From positions 217,834 to 248,745 of the forward strand of contig MU619260.1 of assembly GCA_025201805.1 (NCBI GenBank): 30,912 bases of DNA, written 5' to 3'. Source of the stretch: Parasitella parasitica. Lineage: Eukaryota > Mucoromycota > Mucoromycetes > Mucorales > Mucoraceae. The number at the start of each line of letters is the position of its first letter. The stretch's first letter is position 1. The position numbers were made by a program, and so were the translations under genes. The notes under the pieces are model-generated. The model was not told where the DNA came from. It made no database searches and saw only the letters and a list, made by a program, of their open reading frames with translations. Shown here piece by piece: positions 1,941-26,540 of the stretch.

Positions 1941-4900
1941 TCATGGTTTTGGTGCTTGCACTTTTAGTCGCTTGAATATACCAGACCAATGTAATTTAGC
2001 CTTTTTTGAATAATCTGAAGAAGCTTTTCTAAGTAAGTGATAATTAGAAAAACAGGCTGAAAAGGTTTCAATCTGTAAGAAACTTACTTTGACGTACTAC
2101 TGAGGCTTTTCTGTGGAATGAATTTTGAATTCAAGCTTTCTTGAGGTATTTGTTGTGATTGTTGCGCTTCCTTGGTATTTGTAATCGAGGAAAATGATTG
2201 CTTTGTGATAATTTTCTCCTCAGTAATGACATCCAATTTGACTTCTGTTTGGCCTAGATACAGCCTTACTATGATTGGAACTACGTCTCCAGGCTGTAAG
2301 GGTAGTGATTTAGGTAAGTCGATATTGCGTATCAAAACTTTATCAAGGCGAGAATCCAGCGCAGAATCGATGACCGTGTTTTCAGCACTTGTGCATAGTA
2401 TAGCTAGACATAAGAGTTATGACTACAGTTCCTGGATCAGGCGTACATGACTTACAAACAAAAGCATTATTAGGATAGGTGATATAATATTTCTTTTCAA
2501 CATATTCATTAGTTTTCATGAAATTGTTGGCTCTAAACAAGAAATCGAATTTAGACCTGACAAATCTCGTCTCAGAAGATGATTGCGGCAAACTAGCAGT
2601 GTTAATAAGTGGATGCAGTACTTCTAAACCGTATGATTTCTGTACAATTCTCCTTGCAATATAGCTTGTGTCCCTTGCCAATTCAACAGCACCTCGGACA
2701 ACGGATTGATCATACTGTGATGGCGCTCGCACTTGAATCCCTTTGTCAGCGAAATTGTCTTGTATTCTGTTCTGCAGATATTTAGACTGTCCTAGGCCAC
2801 CTGTTAAAATAATCATATCAAGCTTCATCTCAACCTTTTCCATTGCATAATATTGATTCTCGATAAGGTGCATAATATTGTTTATAATTGGGTCGAATAT
2901 CTTTGTAGACATGTCGTACGATGATATCACTATTTTGGGAGTACCTTTAATTGGTATGTTGATGATGGTATTTTGTTGGCTTTTATACGTAAATTTTTCC
3001 TATCGAGTTTGTCAGCACAGGCTGGCAGGGCTTAAAAATTACTAGTGCTTGCCTTGATATCTAAAATAAAGCTCAACACCATCTGTTCGAGCTCGTAGCT
3101 ACTCACTACATAATTTCTAGCATAGCACTCATGTCTTATGAATTTTCTAAATGCATCATCCAAGAATGAAGATCCACATAAGCTGCCACTACCGGCTGTT
3201 ACCTCGTCAATATAGTATTTTCTGTTGTTTTCTTTCTTAGAATACTCATAGGTAGCCATGTCGACAGTTCCTCCCCCAGCATCACAAATTAGCGTTCGCA
3301 CTTTTGTCTTTTGTGGGTTTTCCTTGAAATAATTTTTGAAGTAGTCGGTGCTGCTGTCGTTTGCATAGAATATAGCAGCAGCCTCAGGTTCGTTCACCAG
3401 CAAGAGTCTGTTTGGATTGTCTTGTGTAGAAATGATGCCAGCAGAGATAACTGTTTCTCTCATTACCCGTTTCATCTTATCGCTCCAAATTGTGGGCACT
3501 GTGAAGCAATACCGATATTTCTTGGCTGTTTTTGGAAACTTCATCTCCATGGCCTCTTTGATTTTGTCACTCAATGCTCGAAGATAGTTTGATATAGCGT
3601 TGATAATAATCATCTCATTCTCACCATTCTCGTCTATATTATCCATGTATAGTTTGAATCTTGACATGAGTTTTCCTGATTCTCCAGAGCGATAGTAATC
3701 ATCAAATGCTTCTTTGCCCCAGTATTTCTGCTGCGTCAAAGATTCGTCGTATAATGATAAAGTCGGCAGCTGCATCAAGTTTTTGCTATGTGAAACAATT
3801 AGCCTTGATAGAAAGCAAGCTACATACTTTTTGTAAACCCACTCAAAATCAACTTGATCAATGCTATCAATCTTGCTATAATACCATTTAGAGAAACTAG
3901 TGCCAAAATCTAAAGTCATAAATTTAGTGGGACAAAAGAAGAACAGAATAATTAAAACACACCAATGCCGATAATATGCGTGTAGTCATCATCATTGCTG
4001 TGCTGAGCATTGTCTTCGGCTAATATACTATGCTCCTCAACAAGGCAAATGGGTGCGGTCCTTGGGATCCCAAGCTTCTCGCTTAAACCGTAATACACAG
4101 CACCATGTGCAGATGAAAGGTCATCATTTGATACAATAATCACGTTGCTTGCTATTGCATTAAGCCGCTGTTTCATATATTGAAGATTTGAAAGCGTTCC
4201 ACACAAGAAAACGTATTCGCCAGATACAGATTTGCATTGCTCAGAAACAAGTTTACAGATTTCATCAATAATGGGATCGTATACTTTCTTTTTGAGATCA
4301 CTCATTTCAAGAGTCAAATATGGGGCGGCTCCTATGGTTGATTGAAAAGCAAGCAACTTTATAGGAACTTGCGTGTTGATGCTCAGATCCAAGGAATACT
4401 ACGATATTTAAAATTGGTATATTAAATTGCTTGCATCAGAAAATACCATACCATACCTTCATGTTATCCTCAAAGTATTCGAGCGCATCTGCCCTCATTT
4501 TGAATAGTTTATCTTCAGTGTATATGGGGTGCTTCTTAATAATATCTAGGACATAGCTTTCAAACAGATCGTTTAATTGGTCGCTGCATAATTTATCGCT
4601 CGTAAAATCGTGTTCTAATGCTTTGATATCTATATCGCTACCGGCACTGACAACCTCCATAACCTTAATTTTGAGGTATTTAGAGTCTACATCGCAAATG
4701 ATGAGACGATCGTCCAATTTCAAATTTTTGGTCCTGAGAAGATGCTTCGCCATTGCCGTATAAGAGTCAATAAATAGCAGCTTATCTTCTCTATCGTCAT
4801 CCTTATAAATTCCAGCTTTTTTGATTGCTTTAGTGATGTTAGTTTTGTATCTAGGTTGGCTTGGGTGTTGGAGTGTAAAACAGTATCTGATTCGGCTGAT

Positions 4901-5400
4901 ACCCTTTTCGCCTTGGTTTTCTTTAATATCCTCTACAACATGTTGATGAAACAGCTCTAAATAATCGGCAGCAGGGTTTCTGTCATTCTCTATAGGTTCC
5001 AAATCTTTGACATGCAGCACAAAAGGTAGGTGCTTGATGTGAATTGAGTTTGAGGTTACAGGCACATTTCCGAAACCTTTGATTTTGCTTTCAGCGTCGA
5101 TTGAGCTTTTTTGTTCAGTTAATGTATAGGCAATTGCAGATGGAACTATGCTAGTACTACTGTTGTGTTTGCCAGAATAAGCAATGACTGAAGGCACTTT
5201 TTCGTCTTTTACGGCTGCTCTAGGCCAGTTTTTTACTGAATAGACTGTGCTCGGATTTCCAACTCTAGCATAACAACAACTGGAATACGTGGTTCCAAAA
5301 TCTAATGCTTATATATAAGTATATTCATTCAATAAATTTTTACTAATTTGCTACCTATGCCAACGATATAGTCGTACTCTTTTTCGATGCTATTGTCCAT
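1941..5400 (-). CDS. Tandem Hsp70-type protein (degenerate NBD + intact NBD)
   Basis: Seven-exon model on the minus strand: 5400-5355, 5301-4457, 4398-3963, 3909-3053, 2999-2456, 2403-2088, 2028-1941; 1043 aa, all junctions in frame. Residues 16-22 (DFGTTYS) are a phosphate-1 loop, and a second one (DFGTSFS) begins at residue 443, so two actin-like Hsp70 nucleotide-binding domains lie in one chain. The C-terminal unit keeps NEPEAAA (about 615-621), DAGGGTVD (about 652-659) and the adenosine motif TGGLGQSKYLQ (about 794-804), resembling the atypical HSPA12-like group. In the N-terminal unit the equivalents are IDSYTAM (about 193), CDVDSKYLK (about 218) and LCGTLSNLQYM (about 362), so ATPase function there is probably lost. 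Intron 3 joins the halves at the same place and phase as intron 1. Intron 4 begins with GC rather than GT. The last exon is less certain: without it the protein stops at 2084. Function inferred only as chaperone-like or nucleotide-sensing; client unknown. Confidence 0.8.
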
Positions 5401-5939: not shown

Positions 5940-7710
5940 ATGGCAACTAAGCAATTCGTTCGACGCTTAGCAACCACAAGACACTGCTCTTCCAACAAGG
6001 TTGTTTTCTTGACCGAAAAGCAGCTGCAGTCATTATCCTTGGATCAGGAAAGGTAGCAGCAGCAGCAGCAGCATTTTTTCCATCTGTTATGACAGCTAAT
6101 TTGATATAGGGAGCTGCTGGCCACAGAAATCAGTGTATCCTCCACACATCATGTTAGAAGCTCTGAGGAGGCAGATTTTGGGCGCAAAAGAATTGGATGT
6201 GTTGAACTCCCAAAGCCTCTGATCAAAGGCATTACTGACCTTGTCGAAGGTACTGTTCTCAAGTTTTTGACAGCTCTGCAGATAGATTGACATTCCAATT
6301 AGGTCAAGATAAACGATTAATCAGAGCAGATGCTCTTCGGTTATATGACGCATTACGATCCACAGCGAAGATACCCAAAGAATCAACCGAGGATTTTGAC
6401 GGCTCAAGAAAAGCCAAAAAGCTACGAAATGCATCTTCTTCCTCTGCCAAAGCACTGATCGAACCACATAAGCTCTCCTACGGCCCTAGAGAGTCAGTCG
6501 CGTATGCAGCTGGCGTCTTGCCGTCGACTTTTGCAGCGATTACTAATGTTATGCATGAAATTTCTGCGAGGATTGCGGATTTTCGTCCTCGATCAATGTT
6601 GGATTTCGGTACTGGACCAGGCACGGCGATCTGGTAGTGTTTATTGTGCATTCATGAGTAATTTCGAAGGATTCTAACAGGAAAATGGCGGGGGGGGGGG
6701 TTTTAGGGCTGCAAGGGGGGTATTTAAACTGGAGAAGTGTGTTGGTGTGGATCTCTCAGAGGACATGCTTCGAGTTGCGGAACATTTAGAGGGTATTTGT
6801 TGCAGAATGACATGTCTGCTGTTTGCTGATTGTTTTGTAGAATCAGTCAAGACTGAGGGTGACAGCGCAATAGAATTCAAACGATACTTGGCCTTTGATC
6901 CAAAGGTAGTGGAACTTTATTTGAACAGGATATTTGGATTGATGGAGAAATTTTAGGCACCAAAGACGGATTTAGTTGTTGGTGCATTTACGCTGGGAGA
7001 TATAGCGTCTACTGCACTTCAAAAATCCACAGTAGAGCAACTGTGGGCACAGACAGGAGACATTTTGGTATTTATTTGATAAATGTGTGTCTCTGGTACC
7101 ATGCTAATGTTCACTTTGCAGGTGCTGATTGAGAGAGGAACGCCAATTGGATTTTCCAACATAGCAAGAGCAAGACAATGTATTTTGGATTCAGAAAGCG
7201 TAAATGCTCATGTAGTAGCACCTGTAAGGTTGTAATATAGTTGCTGTTGTATCCAATGCTGAAATATGATAGTGTTCGCATGACCGTCCTTGCCCATTAT
7301 TGTTTTCGCCACAAGCTAAACCTGAGGCTTTATGGTGTCATTTCTCACAAAGAGTGCAGCGCCCACCATTCTTGATGAAGACCAAGCATTCCAAATCCAA
7401 CGCCGAAGATTCAAAGTACAGCTACGTAGTTTTACGCAGAGGAAACAGGCCAAAAGCTGCTACAACAATTGAAGAGCAAGCCTATCAATGGCCAAGGTTG
7501 ATCCAACCTCCACTGAAAAAGAATGGGCATGTAGTCATGGATGTATGTTCCAAGGAGGGGGAGATACAGCGCATGGTCGTCCCTAAATCTCAAGGCAAGA
7601 TCCCCTACCGTGATGCCAGAAAAGCAATGTGGGGTGATTTGTTTCCTCACAGCCCCAAAAACAAGGTAGTTACTCGAGTTTCTAAAGGAATGCACGAGAA
7701 AGCCCTATAG
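5940..7710 (+). CDS. RSM22: Rsm22/METTL17-like mitochondrial ribosome assembly methyltransferase-fold protein
   Basis: Eight exons: 5940-6052, 6110-6249, 6303-6633, 6707-6792, 6841-6905, 6957-7067, 7122-7223, 7273-7710; 461 aa, close to METTL17 in length. The N-terminus (MATKQFVRRLATTRH) is basic and hydroxylated, as expected for a mitochondrial presequence. A SAM-methyltransferase-like core follows: LDFGTGPGTAIW (motif I), then CVGVDLSEDML, then LVVGAFTLGDI and a conserved VLIERGTPIGF segment. Downstream, CSHDRPCP and WCHFSQR supply the cysteines that in the family bind an iron-sulphur cluster. The family acts in assembly of the small mitochondrial ribosomal subunit. The exon 3/4 junction was set at the TTTTAG ending at 6706, which restores the frame (AIW-AAR) and places an 11-base G run inside the intron rather than in coding sequence. 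Intron 1 starts with an AGC triplet run. Confidence 0.88.
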
Positions 7711-7866: not shown

Positions 7867-7889
7867 TTGTGTGTCGTTCCTAACACAAG

Positions 7890-8570
7890 TTGTGTTTGAC
7901 CCTCAAGAGAACATCGCCAGTGGAAGAAATACAAACAACTGAAAGAATAGTAAGAGAGCGAAAAGATTACTGTATTGGCCTTTCGCACAAAGGTATTAAT
8001 TACATGACAAATTGTATTTTTGTTGATGAAAGTGGATTTAATGCTTGTATGGTACCCGGACGGGCAAGATCAGTCAAAGGAAAGAAGGCCCATGTAATTA
8101 CAAAGACGAAAAGAGGCCAAAAAATTTCAATCATTGGTGCTATTTCAGCAAAAGGGTTGAATCTTTACAAGGTGTTACGATAGACGGTTTCACAAGCAGC
8201 TTTATTTTTGCTGAATTTATCAAGCAGCTGTTGGAATGGGTTGATATGGAAATCCAACATCAAGAACTCTATTTTATTCTGGATAATGTAAAATTTCACA
8301 AGAGTCTTGTATTACACAGCATCTTTTGAAACACTCAAAACATAGCGGCCATTTCTTGCCACCATATTTTCCTATGCTAAATCTAATAGAACTACCTTCA
8401 ACAAATTGAAAAACTTTGTTAGAAGGAGCCCAAAGGAAACAAAGAGACTCTCTTGGAGCTCACTAAGGAAGTAGAGAAGTAAATAACTCCTCCAGTCTGT
8501 GAAAGATGGGTCCATCATTGTGTCAATATTGTTGATAGATGTATTGCTGGAGAAGATCTCACCTTTGAAA
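7890..8570 (+). pseudogene. Decayed Tc1/mariner-family transposase (DDE domain only)
   Basis: Reading frames from about 7890 encode a DDE_3-type catalytic domain of the Tc1/mariner (IS630-like) superfamily. FVDESGFN near 8017-8042 carries the first aspartate, YFILDNVKFHK near 8270-8302 the second, and LPPYFPMLNLIE near 8357-8392 the final acidic residue. The frame is broken: one base appears lost in the G run near 8153-8157 (between the ISAKG and VESLQG segments), and the next frame stops at 8327 although similarity resumes in another frame to about 8570 (ERWVHHCVNIVDRCI-like end). The N-terminal helix-turn-helix part is missing and I see no terminal inverted repeats. This is a non-autonomous relic lying just downstream of RSM22. 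Confidence 0.8.
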
Positions 8571-8762: not shown

Positions 8763-11106
8763 ATGAACAAAAAGCCAGTTTTACATGGTCTTAGACCTGA
8801 TTTCACTTTTGACAGAAATACTTGCAACATTTTGAAAATTAATCCGATTTTCTCCTCATTACCAGCTGTAAAGTGGAGTGACATAAATCAGCTAGTCAGT
8901 TCTTACGTAGAGAAAAATGAAAGTGACATAGTTGACGCAGATAAAGCTTTTTCACAAATTTGCAACTCTTTAGAAACGATTTGCAAGAAAAGGCGCAAGC
9001 ATTTAGCTCTTCTCTCTTACTGTACCGATCTTTTACGTTTTCTCAAACAAATCAAAAATAAAAAGCAGTTCAAATCAAAATTTGCAAGCAAATTACACGA
9101 ATTGGAAGAACAGACTTTAGATACTCAGGCGCGTCAAGAGGGCTACACTAATGGAGTTCGACTAGCAATCATTGGCGGTAGAGGATATGCAAACACACTT
9201 GATAAAGAAAGAAGGGAAGAACGTTATGAAATAAACTCAGTTGACAGCGAGAGAGAAACTGATCCAGTCAAAAGCCAACAAGAAGCAGTTGAAGTATTGT
9301 TGCATTGCAACGAAAATCCTAATATACCAGATACGGAAGCCAATTTTCTTTTCAAGGTAACATGTCACTTTTGGTTGTATTTTCCTTATTGAGCCAACCG
9401 GTGTTATATTTTTCAGAGAGAGCGTGATTGTTTTTATGCTAAAGTTGATAGCAACAATAGACGTAAGAGGATCTCTGTAGGAACAGCTATCAAGTATGAT
9501 GCTTTATTGAAATACGAACTATTCAAAAAAGAAATTAGTTTAAATAGCTTTGAAAGAAAAAACATGAGGTAGGCATTATCAATTGATATTTGAACCAATT
9601 TCATACTATCAGCTAAACAATTATATAGCACGGGGCTATCGTCTACTTTGGATTTGATAGACTTGACAGATGAAGGACAAGCCTGTAATTTTGAGCAACA
9701 GGAATGGCAAGAGATAATGAGTTCGCTGATGGCCAAATACGCCAGTAACAAAAAATGTCATGTTCCTCAAGAGATAGTTACTACATGGGAGATCATCACA
9801 TCGGTAAATTGATAATAGTTTTTCATTAAAAAGAAAACTCACTAAATCATGTCTTTTCGCTGTGATACAGCTATCACAACGAGATAATGGATTTGAACTT
9901 GGGTAAAAATATATCACAGAGTTAGAGGAAGCGCCAGGGTACAAACCTTTTTTAAAATACTTATCTGTCTTACAAGTTTGGTAAAGGGTCTATAACAAAC
10001 AGTGAGTTTACGCACATATGTCTAATACTTTCACTTTGTTTTTACTAGCTTGAATATAATGGAAAACAATTCAAGGCTATTAGAAAAAAGATACGCTAAT
10101 CGTTTTACTGAATACGATTATTTAGGAAAAATTTGGATTCCTTTGTTCGACTCAATCTTGGCAATAAACGGTTCGACAATTAGATTGAAAAGGTTTTTAT
10201 CTGAAGCTCAATAAAAAGCTATTATAAGCATACTGACATCGTTTATATGTAGTGGAGAGAGCATAAATAGTAGTAGCACCGGAAACAAAGAAGAGCAATA
10301 TGAATCAAGCAAATCGGTCAAGGGGTTTAAGATTGATTTAAGATTCATTTACGACACAGACGAAGATGAATACGATGTCGGTGCTGGTGAAGCTGCCAAG
10401 ACGAACAATGATGATAAACTTTTGCAAGACCTCGGAAAAGTTATTAGAGAATCAAAAGATGTATTAGATGGCCTCCTAAATATTGTGATGGAAGAAAGTA
10501 TTGCGAAGTCGTTGTCTGCGTGGTTTGTGCAAATTTGTGGTCTCCAAGGCGAAATAGCATCTGTTCACTTAGCTTTTGATGGTTTGTATGTGGCTGTACC
10601 ACAGGGAAAGCTAAAGTTCCCTACAAGTATCGCAACAATGGGCGATTTTCTGGGCACTTTCAGCTCTATGCTATTATTTGTGGTAAGCAATCTATAATAA
10701 AAAGAATGAACAAGCTGTCTTACCCTTTATATTTATTTATTTTTGTAGTCAAAACTAGAAAAATGTGCTATTGACATAAAGTCTGCCATTGAACAACTGG
10801 AAAACAGAAGGAGCTCCATGGGTTTTACGTTCAATAGAGCAAGACCATTAATTGAAGGCCATCAAAGATCAGAATGGATGAGGCCGACTTGGTATTCCCC
10901 ACCCCGTCAGCAACAAGCCAATTCGCAACTGCTTTGGAAGAGAAGTATATTACAGTGAACCCGAGGAAGACGCTAGTTCAGAAGCGGAGAGCGAGAGATT
11001 TGAAGAAGAAAATGCAGACGAATTTGGTTGGATCAGAAGAAATGATGGCTGGTTCAACATCCACTCAAAAACTGTTAGCCATATTCATTACAAAAAACCC
11101 GAATAA
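8763..11106 (+). pseudogene. Decayed multi-exon gene of unknown function
   Basis: A chain of exons fits well by splice sites and phase: 8763-9356, 9417-9568, 9629-9803, 9871-9980, 10049-10682, 10749 to about 11106, about 670 aa if unbroken. Three lesions interrupt it: an in-frame TAA at 9904-9906 (before KYITELEEAPGYK), an in-frame TAA at 10212-10214 (after FLSEAQ), and a one-base frame change near 10905-10924, after which an acidic tail (SEPEEDASSEAESERFEEE) continues to a stop at 11104. The first stop could be avoided by a longer intron, 9903-10048, but the second cannot be removed by a normal-sized intron. The protein is polar and lysine/glutamate rich, with conserved-looking segments such as YLGKIWIPLFDS and EWMRPTWYSPPR. 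I do not recognise a domain; it could be a mucoralean lineage-specific or transposon-associated family. Confidence 0.55.
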
Positions 11107-11907
11107 GATGAATGGGTAAGTGCAATAACTAGTACACCTATCCAGCGATTTTTAGAGGCACGCAAAAGATTCAAATAATCAAACAAGAATATATGGTTTA
11201 ATAATCATCGGAATCCGCCATAGAACAAACAAGTACAAGTCTCTCAATAATTAGTGTAATAGGAATCATTTCAGTGCATTACTTCTCTTATACAGCATAC
11301 GGTGCGCAAGCAATGTTTTTTATTAAATTAAAAAATTGGAAGCAATGAAATGATTAAATAAACTAAAAACTATTGCTCAGTGTAATATTTGAAAAGTTGC
11401 TATAAGTAGATTTATAGTTGAAATGGATGTTTCTTAATGGATGTTTTTTTATTGTTATAAATTGGTTTATTATCGTATGGAGTCTCCAAAAGTCCCAAAA
11501 GTCCCTCATACATTTGGAACTCAGGACGTAGTAATTCTTGTTAATTATGGCATTCACCGTAATAACAGTAGTTATTTACGGTTCAAGTCCTCAGAGATAG
11601 CTATTTCAAAGACATAAACGTATGCATTTCTGTAATCAAGATGGGTTTTGCTAAATATGCATAGCTTTCGCAAACTCTACATAAAGTCTACCTACAAACT
11701 GCCACACGTACATGTGCTTCGGCTTATGGATACACTGTATTTCTTCAAGCGTTAGATTATGCCTTTCTCAGATTTTGATTCGTATTAGATCAACAAAGTC
11801 AATTTCAAAAAGCAACAGTTGTATATATTGAATAGGAATAATGAATGATAAGAACAATAATAAATGATGCTGACATACACTATATATAGTTTATACAATA
11901 AGGCTGC
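11107..11907. other. AT-rich intergenic stretch
   Basis: I see no gene here. The region separates the decayed gene ending near 11106 from the 3' end of the recombinase gene and would include that gene's 3' flank, and possibly the right end of the Crypton-like element. Short runs of A and T are common, but I see no clear repeat or inverted end. Confidence 0.4.
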
Positions 11908-14225
11908 TTAGGAGGAGCCAAAAATCTCGGCTTTGTTCATTGATAGCCAATGTATTGTTTTTCCTTTCTGTACCCTTCTTTTCTCAGCAATTCCAACAGC
12001 AGTTTTCATGACTATGTGCCTTTCCTCAGCGTACTGTTGAATCACCTTGATAATGGCATTTCTTCTCAAGAAAAACTTCTTCACACCCTCGTCGTCTCTC
12101 CATCTTGTACCATATTGGCGCTCCAAATCCAACACAGCAGGGCCACCACAGAAACCTTCCGACCACTCCCTCCAAAGATCAGTGAGTGAAACAATCCCAC
12201 GACTCATATGGTATGTTGGAATTCTTGTTGTTGTCGGTGATGATGATGTTGCTGTTGCTGCTGCTGCTGCTGCTTCTGGTGTTGCCGTTGCTGTGGATTG
12301 AATGGTGTTGTTAGCACGAATTGTTTGGTTGAGAGTGGGAAGATTCACTGTGAGATTGACACTAGCTTGACCAGTGACTAAACGAGTGATGTAGTCATTC
12401 AAGACATCTTGCTTTCTTGCTTGCTCGTTTAGTCTGGTAGAGAGGTCGCTATGTAATGTCCTTAAGCGTTCTTCCACTATAGGGATGGATCGTTGTAATA
12501 GCGTATGAGCAGGGTCGTTGTTTTGATTGATGATGGCTTTCATGCGTCTAATTAATAATATTTGGATTAGGTATCAAAATAAAAGGACAATAGACATTGG
12601 AATAAAAACACTTACTCCTTGTAATCTAGAAACATTTGATTTGTAAAGATCTCGTTCGTCCACAAAGGATGATTTGGAAACTTTTCCATCATTACTACAG
12701 AGTCTTGTATGATGGTCTTCCTCAACATGTAAAATAGCTCAAAGCAAGCTTTTGCTGCCACTGTGATCTGTATGGGATCTCCATTGTTCGGATTGTGTTT
12801 TTTTTCGATCATTCTTGCGTTCCATGCATCAAGTTCAGGGAATATCAACTGCGCCAGCTCTTCAGGTGGATCCAAGGATGCCCTTGGGATGAAAAATTGT
12901 CCTTGGTGGATGGTAAATCCAGCCATGACACGCATGGCCTCCCTGGACAATCCCGTGAGATACGCACCATTCATTGTGGTATTGTTCCATCGTCCCAGAC
13001 GACGTATTTGATCTTCGTGGACACCAGCAAGATCTGCCATTCTGGCAGAGCTACCACGACCGACATGCGTCTTGCTTTTAGAAAAAATATTGGCGCCATT
13101 GAGCCCTCTTGAAATCGCATCCTTATGGCTGGAATACTTCCAGGCAACAGTGGGTTGGCGCTCGTCTGACTTGAAGATCTTGGTAAAGTACCAGTCGGGT
13201 GAGGTCGTAAAGTTAGGAAACGGCTCATTTTCCATATGAAAACGCCAAAACATATATAATCCAAGGGCCATTATTGGACAGACTTCTACTCTATTACTTC
13301 TTATACATCCACCGAGTTCAAGACGATTGTTTTTGTTTGTTTTTCCTCGTCTTAAAATCATTACTAAAGCTGGACATTCAACATCTGGCCTCATGCTTTC
13401 ATTTTCAAGATTGACTGTTTGAAAATCCGTTAATTCTGCCATGATGATCGACTGACTTCTCAACAAAAAGTAATGGGAAAAAAGAAAAGCAGCAGAGGCT
13501 TTCAGATTTGAACCATGATCACGGTTTTGATCCATATAGAATTTGACAACGTTTGCAACTTGATTGATGGTTGTGTACCCATCGGCAAGTGTTCCTTCGC
13601 CTCGGTCTTCATAGTTTTCTCGTTTTGACTGGAAATCTCGATCCTTTTGCACTTTTAAGAGATCCTTGACAATTGCTCTTGGATGCTCGTTTCCATTTGT
13701 CTTCCTTCCTACTTGGGTTCTATAGAGATCTGTGATAGCTGCAACATACTGACTGATACTCGATGATGTTATTTTTTTGGGGGCTTTGCCCTTGCGAGAT
13801 AAACGACCTATAACCTAAAATAGATGATGGATTATAAAGCTATTCTGCAGTGGATGGACAAGAGAGCAAGTTTCTCTATAACACTTTACCACTTTATGCA
13901 AGAAGTAGTTGAGTTTTTCACCAGAAACGATGGTTCGTTGTTCGAATGGTTCGTTTAAAAATGTTTTTTTCGCCCATTCTTCAAACTCTTTCGACTTTGC
14001 TTGATAGGCCTTTTTTGTAGCTAGAGGACGGATTTCTTCTGCTGCTCTTGTAGTGTCTTCAACAGCTTTTACCATGTCATATTGAACGAAGGCTCCTGCT
14101 GTAGCATCTGCCATCTCTGTATGATTATCTTCAGGGACGGATGCAGATACGGATGCAGATGATGATGCTTCAGATGCTTCAACTGTATTCAATTCAGTGT
14201 TTTCAATAGTTTTATTTTTGTTCAT
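11908..14225 (-). CDS. Crypton-like tyrosine recombinase with Ndc10-like core and GCR1_C-like domain
   Basis: Three exons on the minus strand: 14225-13890, 13814-12616, 12547-11908; 724 aa with all phases consistent. After an acidic Ser-rich N-terminus comes a SAM-like core-binding segment (about 60-170), then a tyrosine-recombinase fold. Candidate catalytic residues are Arg about 231 (FLLRSQS), His about 362 and Arg about 365 (THVGRGSS), Trp about 388 (LGRWNN) and Tyr about 397 (GAYLTG). After an Ala/Thr-rich linker, residues about 626-715 (SLTDLWREWSEGF ... RYGTRWR-like ... RRNAIIKVI) match the GCR1_C DNA-binding pattern often paired with this core in fungi. No stop or frameshift interrupts the ORF, so the element may be functional or host-adopted. 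Crypton elements integrate by tyrosine recombination and lack long terminal inverted repeats; none are seen here. An alternative reading is a domesticated Ndc10/GCR1-type regulator. Confidence 0.75.
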
Positions 14226-14270
14226 ATGATTAAATTGTATAATTTAAAGAGATAAAAACAAGGTCGACTG
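14226..14270. promoter_or_regulatory. 45-bp gap between divergent start codons
   Basis: The recombinase gene starts with ATG at 14225 on the minus strand and a short plus-strand ORF starts with ATG at 14271. If both are genes they share overlapping leaders and promoters. AT-rich; no named element. Confidence 0.25.
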
Positions 14271-14498
14271 ATGACAGCATTGGAATCTCATTTTGACATT
14301 CGTGAGAATATCAATGCAGATGACGCTTATTTGTTTGAAGTCCTATTTAAGCTGGTGACTCAAGTCTGGGACTCTATCTGGGCAGGTGAAGATAACTCCT
14401 GTTTATTTTTTTTTATTGTGAACGAATTTTTTTTTTTTTTTTTGAGCGATTATTTTCCGGAAATAGTGTATTGCTATGGATTCGGGCATGAAGTTTGA
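14271..14498 (+). CDS. Possible first exon or fragment of an unknown gene
   Basis: An ORF opens with ATG at 14271 and reads about 43 residues of ordinary composition (MTALESHFDIRENI ... LFEVLFKLVTQVWDSIWAG) before running into T-rich sequence from about 14395. A possible donor (GGCAG|GTGAAG) lies near 14386. A later acceptor near 14613-14614 could join a short Ser-rich exon, but I could not build a convincing chain. It may be the remnant of a gene divergent from the recombinase, or chance. Confidence 0.25.
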   Translation: MTALESHFDIRENINADDAYLFEVLFKLVTQVWDSIWAGEDNSCLFFFIVNEFFFFFLSDYFPEIVYCYGFGHEV

Positions 14499-16110: not shown

Positions 16111-19100
16111 ATGATGACTTTTGAAGAAAGTAGTGGTGTACCCAAAATTCTGTTCTCACAGCGAACCAAGAAAAAGTATAGCCGTGTTATAGGCTTTGGT
16201 AAGAAGAACGTCTCTGTTTGGTATGTAACAAACTGACGCCATTTTCATAGACCTTGGATCATCTGCTCTTTGCTGCTCGCTCTCCACTGACAAAAACCCA
16301 GTCATCGCGTCAGTGTTCAAAGATTGGATCAATGGCTCAAAACGAAGATCCTCGTATCCTGCTTGCATTCAGTACAAAAACTGGCCTGCTTCGACTGACG
16401 ATATCAGAGTCGGTTTTAAAGGTCGTCCCAAAGTTACTGCAATTAACGATGGCGATGTCTATATCCCCAATATCAAAGGATATGTAACCCGATGGATTAC
16501 GGAAGGCACTAGTGAGGATGGCCCTGCAGCAGACCTGGTTCTCTTCAACTTTTTTGAAGCCGTACGGGCTAATTTCGAAAAAGTGTTCCTTGAGCTAAAC
16601 AAAGATGCAGCAAAATCCTACACCCTTGACAATTGTCGATTCTGTTTCGCAGTTCCTGACAGTCTCAAGGGTAGACTGGAATACACTGGCCTTATCCGAG
16701 AAGCCTTCAAAAGGGCTGGGTTTCTCAAGGAAGACGATGATGACAATCGACTGATATTTGTCTGCGATGCAGTAGCTGCTGGCTACAACTGTCTGGCCAC
16801 ACCACGTATTTTTAGCGGAATTGAGCTCGAGAAAAGCTATTTAGTTGCTGATATTGGGTACGATTCAGCCAAATTCTCAGTTATCAAGGCTCAGACAACA
16901 GAGGCTGGCAGCTTTGTCGAATCCGTCATTTCAAGTGGAACTAAAGGTTATCGCAGCCTCAATGATAATTTCAGAAGCTATTTGGTAGAGAAATCTGAAA
17001 CGCTTGGCTTAGACATTACCAATCTTAGACAGCTTGACCAAATTGTTGAATCGTTTGAAAAATATGAAAAGGTATATATGTACATCCATCTTGGCTCAAG
17101 CGATGTGTTAAATTTTGTGTAAATTAGGTCAAAATTGATTTGAACGATGACGAGGAAACGACGAGCTTCAAAGGCATATCTGGCTCTGTAGAAGTTAGCA
17201 ACACAGATCTACGACAAGTTGTTTTCGAGCCGTTCCTGGATGGCATTTTCAGCCTGATCTACGCCCAGTGTGAGGCAAACTCCATCAAGGAAATTATTTT
17301 CCGCGGTCAGTACTGTGAAGATCCTTACTTTTATTACAAATGCAAAAAATTTACTACCGACGCTACAAAGATGAGGAAGCTGAAGAGTATTCCTACTTGC
17401 ACTGTATGGGAAAAAGAACCACAATTCATGGTTTCCAATGGTGCTGTCTCGTTTGGTCTCAGGTCGGCTTCAACACAAATCCCTACTTTGGTCAGCCAGC
17501 AGATTTCAGGAATAAAAGAAAGAGATATTCCACCTAATTCATCCACTTCACCCACTTTATCCACACTAGCCATTTCAAACAATCAGCAACCGAACAAAGC
17601 CTCTGCGCAACCTACTGTCGTCCCTAAAGGTCACTTTGCTGTTGGAATTGGTAGGTTGAATCAAGTATCCAATTTGAACTGGTTGTAACGATTTTCTGAT
17701 CCATAGATTTTGGAACGACATTTTCCGGATGCTCTTTTGCTGATATCAGTACGGTAGATTCAAATAACAGACGCGAGATTATTCCGGTTAATGAATGGTA
17801 AGGAGGCAGTGTGAGTTAAGAGCGAAGCATGTATTGATACCGCTCGCATTTACTCAGGCATCAGGCTCAGCCGTATCCTAAAATCTCGACAGCACTGAGA
17901 TACAACGAGTACAAAAAAGAGTTCACCCAATACTGGGGTTTTGATGCCTTAGACAAGCGAAAGAAGAAAGGAGACATCAACTTGGAATTCTTTAAGCTTC
18001 TTCTGTCGCCCGATAACGTTGAGAGATTTTATGGCAAAGGAAATAGAGACATTCAGGACATCACAGATAGACTTTTCATGTTCAATGTTGGTCCTCAAAG
18101 CGAAAGAAAAAGCAACCATATCAAAACCTTGACACCAGTGGATATCATTGCAGAATACTTGTGGAATTTCAATGCCAAAATCAGAGAGATCTTGAACAAA
18201 AGATTTAGAGTTAGCTTTAAAGACATGAAATTACACTACGTGCTTACAGTCCCTGCCATGTGGACCGAGACTGGTAGATCTACCATGATAGAGGCTGCAA
18301 TAAAGGCTGGATTGATGAAAAGGGGCGAAGAGAAAACAGTGCAGCTTATCACTGAGCCTGAAGCAGCTGCACTCTCCTGCGAAGAATTCATGAAGCACAC
18401 TTTTAGACTTACAGACGATCTTTACAAAGAGGGCTTAAATTTCATCGTCTTTGACGCTGGCGGAGGAACTGTCGATCTGGTCACTTTCCGACAACAAAGA
18501 GTTGATGGTTATGACAGCATCCATCAAATCGGTGATGGTACTGGTGGCACTTGCGGCGCTGTTAATTTAGACAGAAAATTCAGAGAATTGATCGAAACGT
18601 TTTATACTCAAGTAATGGGTGTGGGAGATGCAGAAGAAGAATTTTACAAGCACCACATGGATCGCTTCAAACAAGAAATAAAGGTATGCGTTTCAGTATA
18701 CCGCCAAACAGCGTGTCAGTATTTTTTCTCAATAATTATTAGGAAAATTTTATGCCTACTAATAACCCTAAACGCGAATTTAAAATCGAATTACCAAGGT
18801 TTCCCGAGATTCCTATCGATGCTGAGCCTCAGGCGTACCCTGGATTTGATAATAATTGCAAACTAACGCCTGACAAAAAGACGTTTATAATAACAGAAAG
18901 CGATATACAAGAGCTTGTTTTTGACCCTGTCATTGAAGAAGTACTTGTGTTGCTCAAAAAACAGATTGAAAAAAGCGCCCAGTTCCCATTATCTGCTGTT
19001 CTTTTAGTTGGTGGCTTCAGTCAATCAAGATACTTGCAAAAGAGAGTCAAGGATTATTGCAAAGAGAACAACATTCCGCATGTTGGCATACCCCCTGAAG

Positions 19101-19742
19101 GTGTAACGGCTATTTCTCGAGGCGCCGTATCTTATTTTTTGGATCCTCGCCTAGTATCAAAGAAAAGCGCCAATGTTTCGTACGCCATTCAAGTTGACCT
19201 GCCAAACAGAGAAGGTGATAAAAGCCATTTGGCTTATTTTATTCGAAAAGGTACTCCTATTGAAGTGGAAGAAACACTGTATCAGCAAACTGTCTCTGTT
19301 AACTACCCTGAAAGTGCTGTCATTGGTAATTATTTTGACCTTGCGTTGTTTATGGATAAATGCTAAATTCCTTTTATTAGCACTCTTTTCCAGAGATGAA
19401 AAGACAATGCCTGATAAAAACGATCGAATCGAAGCATTTCAATCAAATGAACAAAATGATATCAAAAAAGTAGCCGAATATGTAATTGATTTACCTGAAA
19501 ATCAATCCATTAAAAACGGCACACCTGTCCAGCTGGAGATATCCTTGAAAATGACTGTAGAGGGGGTATCGCTCAACATAAAGAGCCTCAATTCTCTCAT
19601 TAAAATAGAGCAGAGTGGACAAATTGATGAGGCTGCTTCTATCCTTTTTGAGAGGATCCAACCTGAACCTTTGAATATCCACTTGAATGCGGAAAAAGTT
19701 CATTCTTTTAATATTTTCTCCATTTTTTCATCCAAAAAGTAA
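16111..19742 (+). CDS. Second tandem Hsp70-type protein (degenerate NBD + intact NBD)
   Basis: Seven exons: 16111-16198, 16251-17071, 17128-17650, 17707-17797, 17858-18683, 18743-19325, 19381-19742; 1097 aa, all phases consistent. The N-terminal unit starts with DLGSSALCC at about residue 30 in place of a normal DxGTT phosphate-1 loop. Its other motif sites read CDAVAAG (about 201), ADIGYDSAKF (about 229) and FRGQYCEDPYF (about 361), so it is probably inactive. A Ser/Thr/Gln-rich linker of about 50 residues (about 420-470) leads to a second NBD from residue 478: DFGTTFS, TEPEAAA (about 673-679), DAGGGTVD (about 707-714) and VGGFSQSRYLQ (about 874-884), all intact. It shares five intron sites with the gene at 1941-5400 and has one extra (after residue 507). 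The C-terminal substrate-domain-like region is short and variable. Probable role: nucleotide-dependent chaperone or signalling protein of the HSPA12-like group; partner unknown. Confidence 0.85.
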
Positions 19743-20277: not shown

Positions 20278-21195
20278 TTAGTTACGACCACGACCACGGC
20301 CGCGACCACCGAAACCACGACCACGGTCTCCACCACGACCACGACCACCAAAGCTACGACCACGATCTCCACCACGGCCACGTCCACCACTGAAACCACC
20401 ACGAGGAGGACGGCTACGGACTCTGGAAGTATCATCCCCACCACTGAAATCAGTGCGAATAGGACGGCCTTCAATGCTTACACCGTTCATTTCCTTGACA
20501 GCAGCCTCGGCTTGACCATCAGTTTCGAACTCAACATAGGCAATACCACGAATCTTACCAGTCTCTCTGTTGAAAGGTAAACGAATATCACCGATAATAG
20601 TACCAAATTTCTCGAAAGCTTCGCGGATACTGTCTTCGTTAAGGCTGTGAGCTAAATTGGCCATAAAAACGGTATTTGTCTTGGGACCAAAGTTAGTATC
20701 CTTAACGCGAGGAGTAGCGGGATTCGCATTGTCAACCTTGATGGTGCGATCCATGAATGTAGTACCATCCAGTTCCATAGCAGCAGCCTTGCCAGACTTT
20801 TCAGTGAAGTCAATGTGAGCGAAACCACGAGAGCGACCAGTTTGAGGATCTAAACGAAGTCGTATATCAGAGATTTCACCGCAGGATTTGAAATGGTCAC
20901 GGATATCGTCAGGTGTAGCGTCAAAGCTAAGTTGACCAACCCAAACAGTGGCACCTTCAGCACCGAAAGCCTTTTTTGTAACTTCTTCAACCTTGACAGT
21001 CTTCTTGGGACGTTTCTCTTCTTGCTCATCCTCAGAATGAGAACGTTTGATATTTACCTTTTCTTCCTGGTCATCATCATCAGATTCGTTTTCCGAAGCA
21101 GATGGTTCTTCGCTTTCCTCATCAGATGTATTCTCGTCGCTGGAAGCAGACTTGGGAATTTCTTCGGCTTTGATTTGAGCAACAGACTTTCCCAT
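20278..21195 (-). CDS. NSR1: Nucleolin-like nucleolar RNA-binding protein (Nsr1/Gar2 type)
   Basis: A single uninterrupted 305-aa ORF with no intron, unlike its neighbours. Order of parts: an acidic Ser/Asp/Glu-rich N-terminus (about 15-60), a basic KRPKK nuclear signal at 61-65, RRM1 at about 83-156 (RNP2 VWVGQL, RNP1 RGFAHIDF), RRM2 at about 175-250 (RNP2 VFMANL, RNP1 RGIAYVEF), and a Gly/Arg-rich RGG tail from about 262 to the end. This is the arrangement of yeast Nsr1, fission-yeast Gar2 and animal nucleolin, which act in pre-rRNA processing and small-subunit biogenesis in the nucleolus. It is shorter than Nsr1 because the acidic region is brief. The start ATG lies about 45 bp from a 66-base T tract (A on the coding strand). 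Confidence 0.92.
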   Translation of the reverse strand: MGKSVAQIKAEEIPKSASSDENTSDEESEEPSASENESDDDDQEEKVNIKRSHSEDEQEEKRPKKTVKVEEVTKKAFGAEGATVWVGQLSFDATPDDIRDHFKSCGEISDIRLRLDPQTGRSRGFAHIDFTEKSGKAAAMELDGTTFMDRTIKVDNANPATPRVKDTNFGPKTNTVFMANLAHSLNEDSIREAFEKFGTIIGDIRLPFNRETGKIRGIAYVEFETDGQAEAAVKEMNGVSIEGRPIRTDFSGGDDTSRVRSRPPRGGFSGGRGRGGDRGRSFGGRGRGGDRGRGFGGRGRGRGRN

Positions 21196-22043: not shown

Positions 22044-25000
22044 ATGAGCGTAAGTAACAGCTTGCTGTGTGTCAAGAAAGGCCCCATAACGACCTATAAA
22101 TTAGGACCAATATCAAGCAAGATTGAGTGAACTTCGAGCTAAAATAGTTCAAAATGAAAGAATGCGCGATAAAGCCTACCAACTGAAACCGCTTCTAACT
22201 GATCGCAACGCCCTTTCTCAATGTGAGACTGAAATAAGAGAATGTCAAAAATACATTGATTACTTTACAGAGGAACTAGCCAAGATAGAAACTAAAAAAG
22301 AGCTGGACAACGACCTTGGCAGTGGTACCGCACCAGGAGGACACTTTCCTTCGAATGATGGCTCAACTGCTCCTCCTCCTACTACTACTGCTACTACTGC
22401 TACCACTATTACTACTACTAATAATAATACTACCACTCCTCCTCCTCCTGCACGTACAACGAGTGCCGGAACACCAGCAGACAACCACCAGGTCAAGAAA
22501 TACTCAACACTAGGTAAAACGAAACTTGGCATGGATACGTATGCATATTGCTAATATTTGCCCCAGATTTATTGACCACAGATACTTTGTACAATAAATC
22601 AAAGGTGTCTCTTAAATTGCATGAACTAGAATACAAACTTGATGTAGAAAACAAAGTGTTGGCAGGTATAAAGACTATGGCCGACGTAATGGACAGAGAC
22701 CCTTCGCTGAGCGACAGAAAACGACGAGCTGAATTGCAGCTGCAAATGTATGAAAGCATTGAAAAGCTGAATTTACTGACCAAGGCGTTAAGAAAATACA
22801 AGAGCCTTTACATTGGAGAAGGAGACGATGACGATGATTATGGTGAGAATAACATTCTTGCGATGCATTTACTGTCTAACGCTAAGCAAACAAACACAGA
22901 ACTGGAAACACCTCCCTCAGCTCGCATGCCACCGGGATTCAGAAGACCAGTTACGGGGAAATTACAACTTGAACTTGTTCAGGCACATGGGCTTGCTCAT
23001 GCACCAACAAGAATGTTCAAGATGCCTGATACTATCGTGTATGTCAAGGTTGACGGCAATATTGTTTATCGATCTAGGTTGTCTCGCAATGATAAATGGC
23101 TCGATATGTGTGAGACGCATGTCAACAAGGCAACTGAAGTGGAAATTTCAATCTATGATCAAGAAGCAGAACGTAGCTTGCCGATTGGTATATTTTGGCT
23201 TAAAATCACAGACATTGCTGAGGGTTTGCGTAAAAAGAAGATTCAACAAGAGAGCGGCCCTGGTTGGGTTCCTGCTGAAGTCTATCAAAAACAAGAGAAG
23301 GAGGGTCTCGATCGCCTACCCATTCCTCATCAACAGCAGCTACAGCCCCAACAGCCATCCCATGTCGAATCTAATCAGGAGGGCATTCAGGCCTGGTTCG
23401 ACGTAGAGCCATCAGGCGAAATGCTGCTTCGTGTCAACTTTGTGCGTGAGGCTGCCAACCGCCGTCCATTGGATAAGCTAGGTCGTGCTGGCGCTGTGAG
23501 ACAAAGAAAAGAGGAAGTCCATGAGATGAATGGCCATCAGTTTGTAGGGAGGAAATTTTACAACATCATGCGCTGTGCTTTGTGCGGAGAATTTATGGTG
23601 AATAGTGGCTACCAGTGCGAAGATTGTGAATATACTTGTCATAGGAAATGCTTTACAAAAGTGGTTACCAAGTGCATTTCGAAATCAAATGCTGATAAAG
23701 ATGCTGCTGACGAAGACAGGTTGAATCATCGCATCCCTCATCGCTTTGAGCCCATCACCAATATTGGAGCTAACTGGTGCTGCCATTGTGGTTATATGCT
23801 ACCATTAGGCTCCAAAGGGGCTAAAAAGTGTTACGAGTGCGGTGTTACCTGTCATATTAAATGCCAGCATTTCATTCCTGATTTCTGCGGTCTGTCTATG
23901 GAAATGGCCAACCAAATGTTGGCTGAAATCAAGGCTGCCAACAGGCGCAAGACATTGGAAAGCACTGCAGTGACTCCGTCTACTTCGACTACTACTACTA
24001 CTACAGCCGGCAGTAAACCAAGCCGTGCATCTCGGCCGGACGAGGAAACCAAGTTGGGTGACCAAATATCTCAGTTATCATTGAATCAACAAAAGCCCTT
24101 GCCTGTTCCTCAGAATCAACAGCAGCAGAAGCAGCAGCAACATGTCCAAACGCCTCCGCCTGTATTGCCCACTCATGGTCAACCGTATCAACCTCAACAA
24201 CAATACCCAGTTCAAATAAATGACCCTCGTTACCAACAGCAACAGGCTCATCCTGCATCTCCCTATCAGCAACCTGCTTCTGCCAGTATTTCACCAAATT
24301 TGCGGCCTGCATATAGCTACGCCTCTTCTGCATTGGAAATAGCTCGTCCGCCTGCACAAGCCAAACCAACACAACAACAAGTGGAGGTACAGCAGCCACA
24401 GGCAGCACAGCGACGTGTTACACTCAACGACTTTAACTTTTTGTTTGTTCTTGGTAAAGGCAACTTTGGTAAAGTCATGTTGGCAGAGGATAAATATGAT
24501 AAGCGTCTGTATGCTGTCAAGGTATTGAAAAAACGTTTCATTATCGATAATGATGAGATCGAGAGGTAAGCTTGATGTGCGCATATCAACACAATTTTTT
24601 TTCTAACACTAGTGCAGTGTTCGATCAGAAAAGCGTATCTTTCAAGCTGCTAATCGTGAAAAGCACCCCTTCTTGATTGGCCTTCAGTCATGTTTCCAAA
24701 CGGAATCTCGCATTTACTTTGTCATGGAGTATGTCAGTGGCGGTGATTTGATGTGGCACATCCAAAGAGAACCCTTTTCTGAGAGAAGAGCCAAGTTTTA
24801 TGCTTGTCAAGTCTTGCTGGCATTGGAGTATTTCCATAGTCAAGGTATCATTTATCGTGATCTCAAACTGGATAATATCATGCTGGGATTAGATGGCCAT
24901 ATCAAAGTAGCTGATTATGGTCTTTGTAAAGAAAACATTTGGCACGATGATACAACAGGGACATTCTGTGGGACACCAGAGTTCATGGCACCTGAAATCC

Positions 25001-25535
25001 TGCTGGAGCAAAAATATGGTCGCGCTGTAGATTGGTGGGCATTCGGTGTTCTTGTATATGAAATGTTGCTTGGTCAATCACCTTTTCGTGGTGAAGATGA
25101 GGATGAAATTTTTGATGCAATTTTGGAAGATGAAATACTGTATCCTGTAAATATGTCGAGAGATTCCGTTTCTATTTGTCAAAGAGTGAGTTTTTGTAGT
25201 AAAGTGTATCTTGTATGTGATGCTAATTGGTGAAATAGCTACTGAATCGAGATCCTAAAAAGAGATTAGGTGCTGGTTCGTCGGATGCTGCTGAAATCAA
25301 AGAGCACCCCTTTTTCAGTGGTGTCAATTGGGATGATATGCTTGCTAAACGCGTTCCCCCTCCTTTCTGTCCGTCTATTACTGGGCCGCTTGATACGTCC
25401 AATTTTGATGAGGAATTCACTCGCGAAAGGCCGGCCTTGACTCCAATCAATAGCGTATTGAACCGTGCTGAGCAACAAGAATTCCAATCCTTTTCATATG
25501 TTGCTGATTGGACTCAAGGAGCACCTAAATGGTAG
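22044..25535 (+). CDS. PKC1: Protein kinase C (fungal Pkc1 type)
   Basis: Five exons: 22044-22049, 22105-22513, 22567-24565, 24618-25185, 25239-25535; 1092 aa. The first exon holds only two codons (Met-Ser), with a perfect GTAAGT donor. Domains in order: HR1a (about 1-75), a Pro/Thr-rich spacer, HR1b (about 138-222), C2-like (about 269-390), two C1 zinc fingers (about 462-511 and 530-580, each with the H-C-C pattern), a Gln/Pro-rich linker, and an AGC kinase domain from about 761. The kinase shows [24 protein letters not shown] (Asp about 886), DYG in place of DFG (as I recall for fungal Pkc1), and the activation loop [13 protein letters not shown]. The tail has turn-motif LTPINS and hydrophobic-motif FQSFSY. 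In fungi this kinase is activated by Rho1 through HR1/C1 and heads the cell-wall integrity MAP-kinase pathway. Confidence 0.96.
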
Positions 25536-25622: not shown

Positions 25623-26540
25623 TTATTTCGTACTAAGCTTAACTCTTTGAAGATAAGCATCCCAACCAGCTTGACGATAACGTTTAGCTTGAGCTTCCAC
25701 TTGATCTGGATTGCCATAAATACCACGACCAACGATAATAATGTCCCCACCGCTTTCAACAATAACTTCATGAGGAGTCCTGTATTGTTGACCTAAACCA
25801 TCACCCTTCACATCAAGTCCCACACCAGGGGACATGACGATAAAATCTTCATCGTCATATTCATTCATCTTGTGTTGAGCAATGAAACCGAAAACAAAGT
25901 CCTTATTACGACGTGCCATTTCAACAGACTCAGATGTGTAACTACCTTTGGTCAAGGCACCTTTGGATGACATTTCAGCCAGCAAAAGCAAACCACGGCC
26001 AAGGGGAAGACCAACCTCACCAAGACCCTTGATAATACCTTCACCAGGTACAGTGTGTGCATTTGTGATGTGTGACCAAGAAGCGATCTTGTAGATGCCA
26101 TTGGCATATTGATGTTTGACAGTGTTGCCTAGCAACGGATTGAAATTGATATACAATTTTAGCAAGTCAGATCAAATTAAGAAACTTACCAATATCAGCA
26201 AATTTACGATCCTCAAAAATTAAAAAGTCGTGCTTCATGGATAAGGCTTCCAATTGATGAACCAGATCATAGTCAAAATCTTCAACAATGTCAATGTGCG
26301 TCTTGAAGCAACTTTTTTTAATTTTATGAAATTAAAAAGAATCTCTTTCTTTGATTTTACCTTGAGTACACAAACAAAAGGACCAACAGCATCAGCTATT
26401 GATAATAATTCCTTCTTTGTGGTGACATCTACAGCAACAGATAAATTTGATTGCTTGCGCTCCATTAATTGGAAAAGAGAACGAGCACAAGCATTAGGAT
26501 GTTTTTCTCCACGCTCAGTATAAGTTTTGTTCGTGTTCAT
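25623..26540 (-). CDS. pyrG: Orotidine-5'-phosphate decarboxylase
   Basis: Three exons on the minus strand: 26540-26361, 26301-26190, 26128-25623; 265 aa, the usual length of the fungal enzyme. It converts OMP to UMP, the last step of de novo pyrimidine synthesis. The catalytic signature [10 protein letters not shown] sits at residues 89-98, with Asp91, Lys93 and Asp96 at the same numbering as in the yeast enzyme; the partner lysine is Lys60 (VLK), immediately before intron 1. The phosphate-binding end [10 protein letters not shown] is intact. The 3' end faces PKC1 at a distance of 87 bp. The 5' end is only 90 bp from the stop codon of the EXS-domain gene transcribed in the same direction; a TTTATAAA box in that gap is the likely TATA element. 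The symbol follows fungal use (URA3/pyr4 elsewhere). Confidence 0.97.

Follow-up and report, generated by a model that had tools for sequence, protein, structure and literature searches.

An Hsp70-like protein of Parasitella parasitica and related moulds joins a very probably inert nucleotide-binding domain to an intact one

Can one Hsp70-like chain carry two nucleotide-binding domains (NBDs), a dead one in front of a live one, and what might the dead one do there? The question is raised by a locus of Parasitella parasitica lying within a 30,912-nucleotide stretch of contig MU619260.1, here called the window, which belongs to a 30.7 Mb genome. A sequence-only reading of this locus had described a single gene in which a pseudo-ATPase Hsp70 unit is fused to an intact one. 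This gene, gene A, is located on the minus strand (5400-1996), has eight exons and specifies a protein of 1004 aa in which a pseudo-NBD1 is followed by NBD2 and by a C terminus resembling a substrate-binding domain (SBD). Once spliced, the model is identical over all 1004 aa to a public P. parasitica protein, P0001, whose database entry reads 'hypothetical protein BD408DRAFT_413403 [Parasitella parasitica]', and it is also backed by A-family relatives. The exon chain had been said to run without a break from one NBD to the next, which this identity bears out. The coding end had been put at 1941; the true end is 1996, 55 bases short of that position, and the public model takes another last-exon acceptor.

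In the model shared with P0001, exon 1 (5355-5400) encodes MDNSIEKEYDYIVGI, the first strand of NBD1. Exon 2 (4457-5301) holds the bulk of pseudo-NBD1, with the phosphate-1 motif DFGTTYS kept and with E175 and phosphate-2 replaced, and exon 3 (3963-4398) combines the end of pseudo-NBD1, the joint and the first NBD2 strand, YTHIIGI. Intron 3 (3910-3962), in phase 1 after GI, occupies the same site as the first intron of C10, a single-NBD paralogue from the same genome. Beyond it, exon 4 (3843-3909) encodes the phosphate-1 region of NBD2 (DFGTSFS), exon 5 (3053-3785) the part of NBD2 with NEPEAAA and DAGGGTVD, and exon 6 (2456-2999) the end of NBD2 (GGLGQSKYLQ) together with the start of the SBD-like part. 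The SBD-like beta region is encoded by exon 7 (2088-2403), in agreement with P0001 and with the full-length structure model, and the C-terminal tail and stop by exon 8 (1996-2023), again as in P0001; all of these features are on the minus strand. The intron preceding exon 6 (3052-3000, minus strand) is a predicted GC-AG intron, on which the public model agrees, while the gene B described below has a GT-AG intron (18684-18742) at this site.

The fusion itself had been located at intron 3. The coordinates given for this intron, 3962-3910, are exact in the corrected model, but it corresponds to the first intron of a C10-type gene, and the joint lies inside exon 3 (4398-3963), between GAVYYGL and YTHIIGI. 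The unspliced DNA contains both frames of a possible pair of adjacent genes, of which the first would end ...IIGIGVF-stop and the second would start at an ATG in intron 3 (MTLDFGT...). However, a second gene of this kind would lose its first strand, YTHIIGI, which is encoded by exon 3. An equivalent strand precedes DFGTS in all ten joints examined (YAYVVGI in P0012), and P0002 also has the strand, though its model then runs on differently. In six of the ten joints the 60 residues ahead of NBD2 contain no methionine; the other four contain one but are annotated straight through. Moreover, intron 3 lies at the site of the first C10 intron and gene B has the same layout. The two-gene explanation, to which we attach next to no credence, was rejected on the content of exon 3, the intron positions and the layout of gene B, and the single gene first proposed is supported. 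Gene A is almost certainly one conserved dead-plus-live protein.

The arrangement is not unique: the window contains a second such gene, gene B, which the sequence-only reading had missed, and a version in the opposite order is found elsewhere in the genome. Gene B (16111-19742, plus strand) has seven exons (16111-16198, 16251-17071, 17128-17650, 17707-17797, 17858-18683, 18743-19325 and 19381-19742) and encodes 1097 aa comprising a pseudo-NBD1, an NBD2 and a C-terminal part; in both architecture and intron phases it agrees with gene A. Its public model, P0121, stops after 989 aa, at the last intron; the model from another assembly, P0122 (1094 aa), agrees with ours in length and splicing. Close relatives of gene B (P0121-P0126 and P0064) are found in Parasitella and Mucor. 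The locus tags of A and B relatives are two apart in M. velutinosus (009519/009517) and in M. bainieri (009556/009558), which means that the A-B pair is old. The third dual-NBD gene of this genome, a predicted model on contig C184 (about 10418-14484, plus strand), has the reverse order: the first NBD carries DAGGGTVD and would be live, and the second has LQIFFRHDTFHLS at that site and would be dead. It resembles the Helicostylum protein P0073.

Between genes A and B lie a DDE_3 transposase fragment (7884-8180, plus strand) and an NDC10_II-domain protein (12612-13814, minus strand), which we take to be a Crypton-like recombinase. Other neighbours are, by Pfam, Rsm22 (6239-6634), a protein kinase (24613-25230, PKC-like by eye), an OMP decarboxylase (25626-26171) and an EXS family member (27671-28102), and, by eye, an RRM nucleolin-like protein (20278-21195). 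Heat-shock elements are not enriched in the window: 11 matches to GAANNTTCNNGAA with at most one mismatch were found against 14.25 expected, and the 300 bases preceding each of the two genes contained none.

How far has the first half of the protein lost its ATP site? Residue names below follow the numbering of bovine Hsc70, with profile columns placed by eye from the motifs. Two phosphate-1 loops had been announced at about residues 16 and 443 of gene A, and they are found at D16 and D443. It had also been noted that EPEAAA, DAGGGTVD and GGxxQSxYLQ are limited to the second half, and indeed NEPEAAA, DAGGGTVD and GGLGQSKYLQ occur only there; at the corresponding sites the first half of P0001 reads DSYTAMA, DVDSKYLK and GTLSNLQYMK, respectively. 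The NBD2 half of P0001 has all the sites of the Hsp70 superfamily considered, namely phosphate-1, K71, E175, DAGGGTVD and the adenosine GG.

The same division holds throughout family A, in which 11 proteins were scored (P0008, which starts too late, was left out). In the N halves, E175, G202, G203, T204, D206 and G339 are each retained in none of 11, G201 in one of 11 and K71 in three of nine, while D10 and G12 (10/10 each), T13 (9/10), D199 and G338 (11/11 each) are kept. In the C halves D10, G12 and T13 are present in 10/10 and all the remaining scored sites in 11/11. Single-NBD proteins keep all 13 sites in 40 of 40 cases, 38 of these 40 proteins being those that made the profile. Lacking phosphate-2, E175, the second adenosine glycine and, mostly, K71, the NBD1 of family A is very unlikely to turn over ATP, and we consider it very probably inert as a catalyst.

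The B-group, with 16 proteins of which several are partial or poorly aligned, presents a related picture. Its N halves have lost G202, G203, T204 and G339 (0/12 each), rarely keep D206 (2/14) or K71 (2/10), keep E175 in 5/15 and T13 in 3/9, and retain G201 in 13/14. The full set of 12 counted sites is found in no N half of either group (0/11 in A and 0/16 in the B-group). Only eight of the 16 B-group C halves have all 12, which suggests that the live half erodes too in this group. Some of these misses are a matter of K71 alignment; those that look real are the substitutions G203S (P0128), T204I (P0055, P0057), D206E (P0055, P0056) and E175D (P0058).

The homology of NBD1 to Hsp70 domains was assessed with a profile of 567 columns, built from 38 single-NBD Hsp70-like fungal proteins of 560-760 aa taken from matches P0013-P0052. 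Residues 4-405 of P0001 match columns 12-412 (E 6e-43) and residues 427-964 match columns 8-559 (E 4e-114). The extents of the two matches indicate that the first unit is a full NBD without an SBD-like part and that the second is a whole unit. Thus the proposal of a pseudo-ATPase unit fused to an intact unit holds for the dead and live NBDs but not for the extent of the first unit, which lacks an SBD, so that the chain reads NBD-NBD-SBD. When an alignment of the first half (10 family-A rows) was compared with the single-NBD alignment by hhalign, the probability was 100 across 384 columns, and none of five column-shuffled controls exceeded 0.51. A chance resemblance of the first half to an NBD was ruled out by the profile scores and these controls.

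Pfam HSP70 scores 29.2 bits against whole P0001 (curated cut-off 20.6), over residues 539-813, that is, part of NBD2 only. Each half of a preliminary gene A model, which differs in three splice choices, gave no Pfam HSP70 match when scanned alone (E up to 1); as the second half is also missed in this way, the Pfam match is to be regarded as marginal. Comparison of NBD1 with the canonical Hsp70 of the same genome by hhalign detected no match (probabilities of 0.15 for A and 0.58 for B), a result of little weight since the target had been assembled from the longest frames of four loci and was partly mis-cut. The label HSPA12-like used here for the group is our assumption, drawn from database names of matches ('Heat shock protein 12B', 'Heat shock 70 kDa protein 12A') and not from comparison with human HSPA12.

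The full-length AlphaFold2 model, obtained with 43 sequences, has a mean pLDDT of 81.8 and a pTM of 0.61. NBD1 is mostly confident in this model, its strands and helices following largely the same order as those of NBD2, and it is uncertain how the halves are positioned relative to each other, as the pTM indicates. No helix of at least four residues is predicted beyond residue 818. The protein thereby departs from the canonical layout of DnaK, Ssa and BiP (one NBD, SBD-beta and helical lid) in having two NBDs and no such helix after 818. The best PDB matches found by Foldseek are entries containing DnaK, BiP, Ssb, Sse1 and Ssz1, with aligned rows spanning residues 435-966, and sequence matches to PDB chains cover profile positions 381-820. 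Among the matches listed, which NBD2 fills, there are none for residues 1-434. Given this coverage, the fold of NBD1 is derived from homology and from the full-length model. Exon 2 modelled alone (pLDDT 53) was too poor for a fold search.

Twelve A-family proteins (P0001-P0012) were found among the matches listed, in Parasitella (two assemblies), seven Mucor species, Thamnidium and Backusella, together with P0011. All 12 cross the join, P0008 and P0011 beginning inside NBD1. Each protein search scored about 8000 candidates sharing most words, and the A search lists the best 120 of 201 matches, from which no absence is claimed for Rhizopus, Lichtheimia, Phycomyces or Mortierella. Of the 131 proteins fetched, 30 are 830 aa or longer, and every one of these matches the profile in at least two separate regions.

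A comparison of the two halves across these relatives gives some indication of the constraints acting on NBD1. The two Parasitella proteins P0001 and P0002 are 84% identical in the N half and 85% in the C half; the corresponding values are 66 and 73% for P0001-P0003, 58 and 72% for P0001-P0005, and 67 and 71% for P0009-P0010. At greater distance they fall to 38 and 48% (P0001 against P0009 of Thamnidium) and to 26 and 48% (P0001 against P0012 of Backusella). For gene B, P0121 and P0122 from the two assemblies share 83% of the N half and 89% of the C half, and gene B shares 39 to 47% and 51 to 54%, respectively, with three Mucor proteins. Across 10 family-A N halves 39 columns are invariant, compared with 122 across nine C halves. 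To judge from these identities, constraint on the dead half approaches that on the live half among close relatives and is clearly lower among distant ones; its faster change over longer distances and its fewer invariant columns fit a weaker constraint on the N half.

This pattern has to be weighed against the idea that NBD1 is a passive relic of tandem duplication, the fusion being real and the dead half tolerated and drifting. The greater divergence of the N halves at longer range (26 against 48% for P0001-P0012), their smaller number of invariant columns and their long branches in the trees would all be expected of such a relic. However, when closely related proteins are compared, conservation of the N half almost equals that of the C half, an NBD1 open frame of about 400 aa has been retained by relatives of A and B from several genera, and invariant replacements occur in or beside the former motifs (Y, L and K at profile columns 194, 226 and 229, in all 10 N halves). 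A drifting relic is therefore unlikely. The retention of the dead-plus-live pair by relatives of the protein in related moulds makes it probable that the dead copy has a job and is not junk, and we consider it probable that NBD1 has been selected for a binding or regulatory role.

Intron positions provide information on the origin of the fusion. The single-NBD paralogue C10 has introns at profile columns 23, 49, 293 and 484, and NBD2 has them at 23, 50, 293 and 484 in gene A (with one more in the tail) and at 23, 49, 293 and 484 in gene B. The exact four-intron set is found in one (C10) of eight other loci of this genome; the remaining seven have other sets or are partial, several sharing the column-49 intron. 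The positions common to C10 and the NBD2 of A and B suggest that the units most likely derive from C10-like genes. The introns of NBD1 are at columns 23 and 297 in A and at 23 and 293 in B, and the absence of the column-49 intron from both N halves favours one fusion preceding the split of A and B. Two trees were computed. The first included 17 of 40 single rows and was made without the N halves of P0053, P0055, P0129 and P0130, which have low coverage; it places the Helicostylum sequence P0073_C among N halves and the B-group C halves nearer the N halves than the family-A C halves. The second was built from 14 of the 30 dual proteins and 12 of the 40 single matches, together with six single-NBD models from this genome and both halves of the C184 gene. 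In it the N halves group together (support 90/77), and a topology that unites the C halves in one clade is not rejected either (p-AU 0.186). One fusion ancestral to both A and B would agree, weakly, with the second tree and less clearly with the first; given the long branches in the trees, such a common origin is a tentative reading.

Taken together, these results can be accommodated by the following scheme. Genes A and B would each encode one chain of two HSPA12-like (atypical Hsp70) units, of which the upstream unit would have kept its whole NBD and lost the substrate-binding part and the catalytic residues, and the downstream unit would have retained a complete ATP site and the C-terminal SBD-like part. 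In the simplest proposal, NBD1 might then be a non-catalytic partner that is permanently attached to NBD2, providing in cis a counterpart of what Ssz1 and Hsp110 do in trans; it could set nucleotide exchange or co-factor access, or dock the pair on a target. By analogy, a tethered partnership of this kind is plausible, and a dead NBD1 as tethered partner of a live NBD2 is, in our view, the best explanation overall, held with moderate confidence. That NBD1 specifically regulates NBD2 in cis is a more doubtful proposition. Equally tentative is the wider notion of a mucoralean Hsp70-like class with a pseudo-ATPase NBD as built-in cis regulator, comparable to pseudokinase-kinase tandems, which may have evolved in both orders: dead-live in A and B, and the reverse in Helicostylum P0073 and the C184 gene.

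NBD1 could also have been repurposed, either to bind a nucleotide or another ligand or to provide an actin-like polymerising or docking surface, and do so without regulating NBD2. The conservation in family A N halves of phosphate-1 (D10 and G12 in 10/10, T13 in 9/10) and of D199 and G338 (11/11 each), with changes in phosphate-2 and elsewhere in the adenosine motif, is in line with this possibility. However, with G202, G203, T204, E175 and G339 at 0/11 and K71 at 3/9 in family A, little of a nucleotide site is left, and B-group N halves keep T13 in only 3/9. Repurposing of this sort seems rather unlikely, and the tethered partner is preferred.

If this preferred reading is right, the family would be of interest for several reasons. 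Because the dead and live NBDs are fixed 1:1 in a conserved chain, control of an Hsp70 by a non-catalytic or divergent relative, already known in trans from Ssz1 and Hsp110, could be studied in one purified protein. The dead-plus-live chain would likewise offer a natural way of testing what remains possible for an Hsp70 NBD once ATP turnover is gone. More generally, the case suggests that the Hsp70-like proteins of Mucorales, a family that has received little study, include architectures that databases know only as 'hypothetical', 'uncharacterized' or 'Hsp70 family'.

The rule of one NBD per chain, from which the novelty of this arrangement had been argued, does not hold as an absolute, as bivalve models and a metagenome protein, P0060, also carry two. 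In the bivalve models P0063, P0173 and P0186 there are two such NBDs per predicted chain, but both have intact sets of the three motifs checked. P0060 has two NBDs whose halves are 72% identical, with phosphate-2 broken in the first; it is a single member, and its nearest named relatives are bacterial and of single-NBD length. On sequence grounds it is an independent recent duplication and a separate dead-live case. Among the two-NBD chains found (P0060, P0063, P0173 and P0186) there thus appears to be no other conserved dead-plus-live family. A search of open-access PubMed Central text (titles and abstract starts, among the matches listed, subscription papers and preprints lying outside it) returned no paper on a two-NBD or dead-plus-live Hsp70.

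The closest known systems each share part of this arrangement. Pseudokinase-kinase tandems such as JAK place a dead domain before a live one in one chain, and their regulation is established. Gene A has the same order, but the fold is unrelated and regulation in gene A would be by inference only. The fungal single-NBD relatives of HSPA12A/HSPA12B type (P0013-P0052) are matched at the level of the group profile by each half of A, and C10 shares the intron positions of NBD2; they differ in having one NBD with all 13 sites kept (40 scored), in front of which gene A adds a dead NBD. Ssz1 of the ribosome-associated complex is described as binding and not hydrolysing ATP, with ATP binding dispensable for function, and a model pairs its NBD with that of Ssb as a heterodimer (PMC10191838). 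It resembles gene A as a non-hydrolysing Hsp70 paired with a catalytic one (PMC10191838) but is a separate chain acting in trans with its own truncated SBD, whereas the dead NBD of gene A is fused and without an SBD. Hsp110/Sse1, a divergent Hsp70 relative, binds catalytic Hsp70 as an exchange factor and responds to ATP (PMC4428496); it too is a separate chain, whereas NBD1 of gene A is fused to its presumed partner and lacks most of the ATP site.
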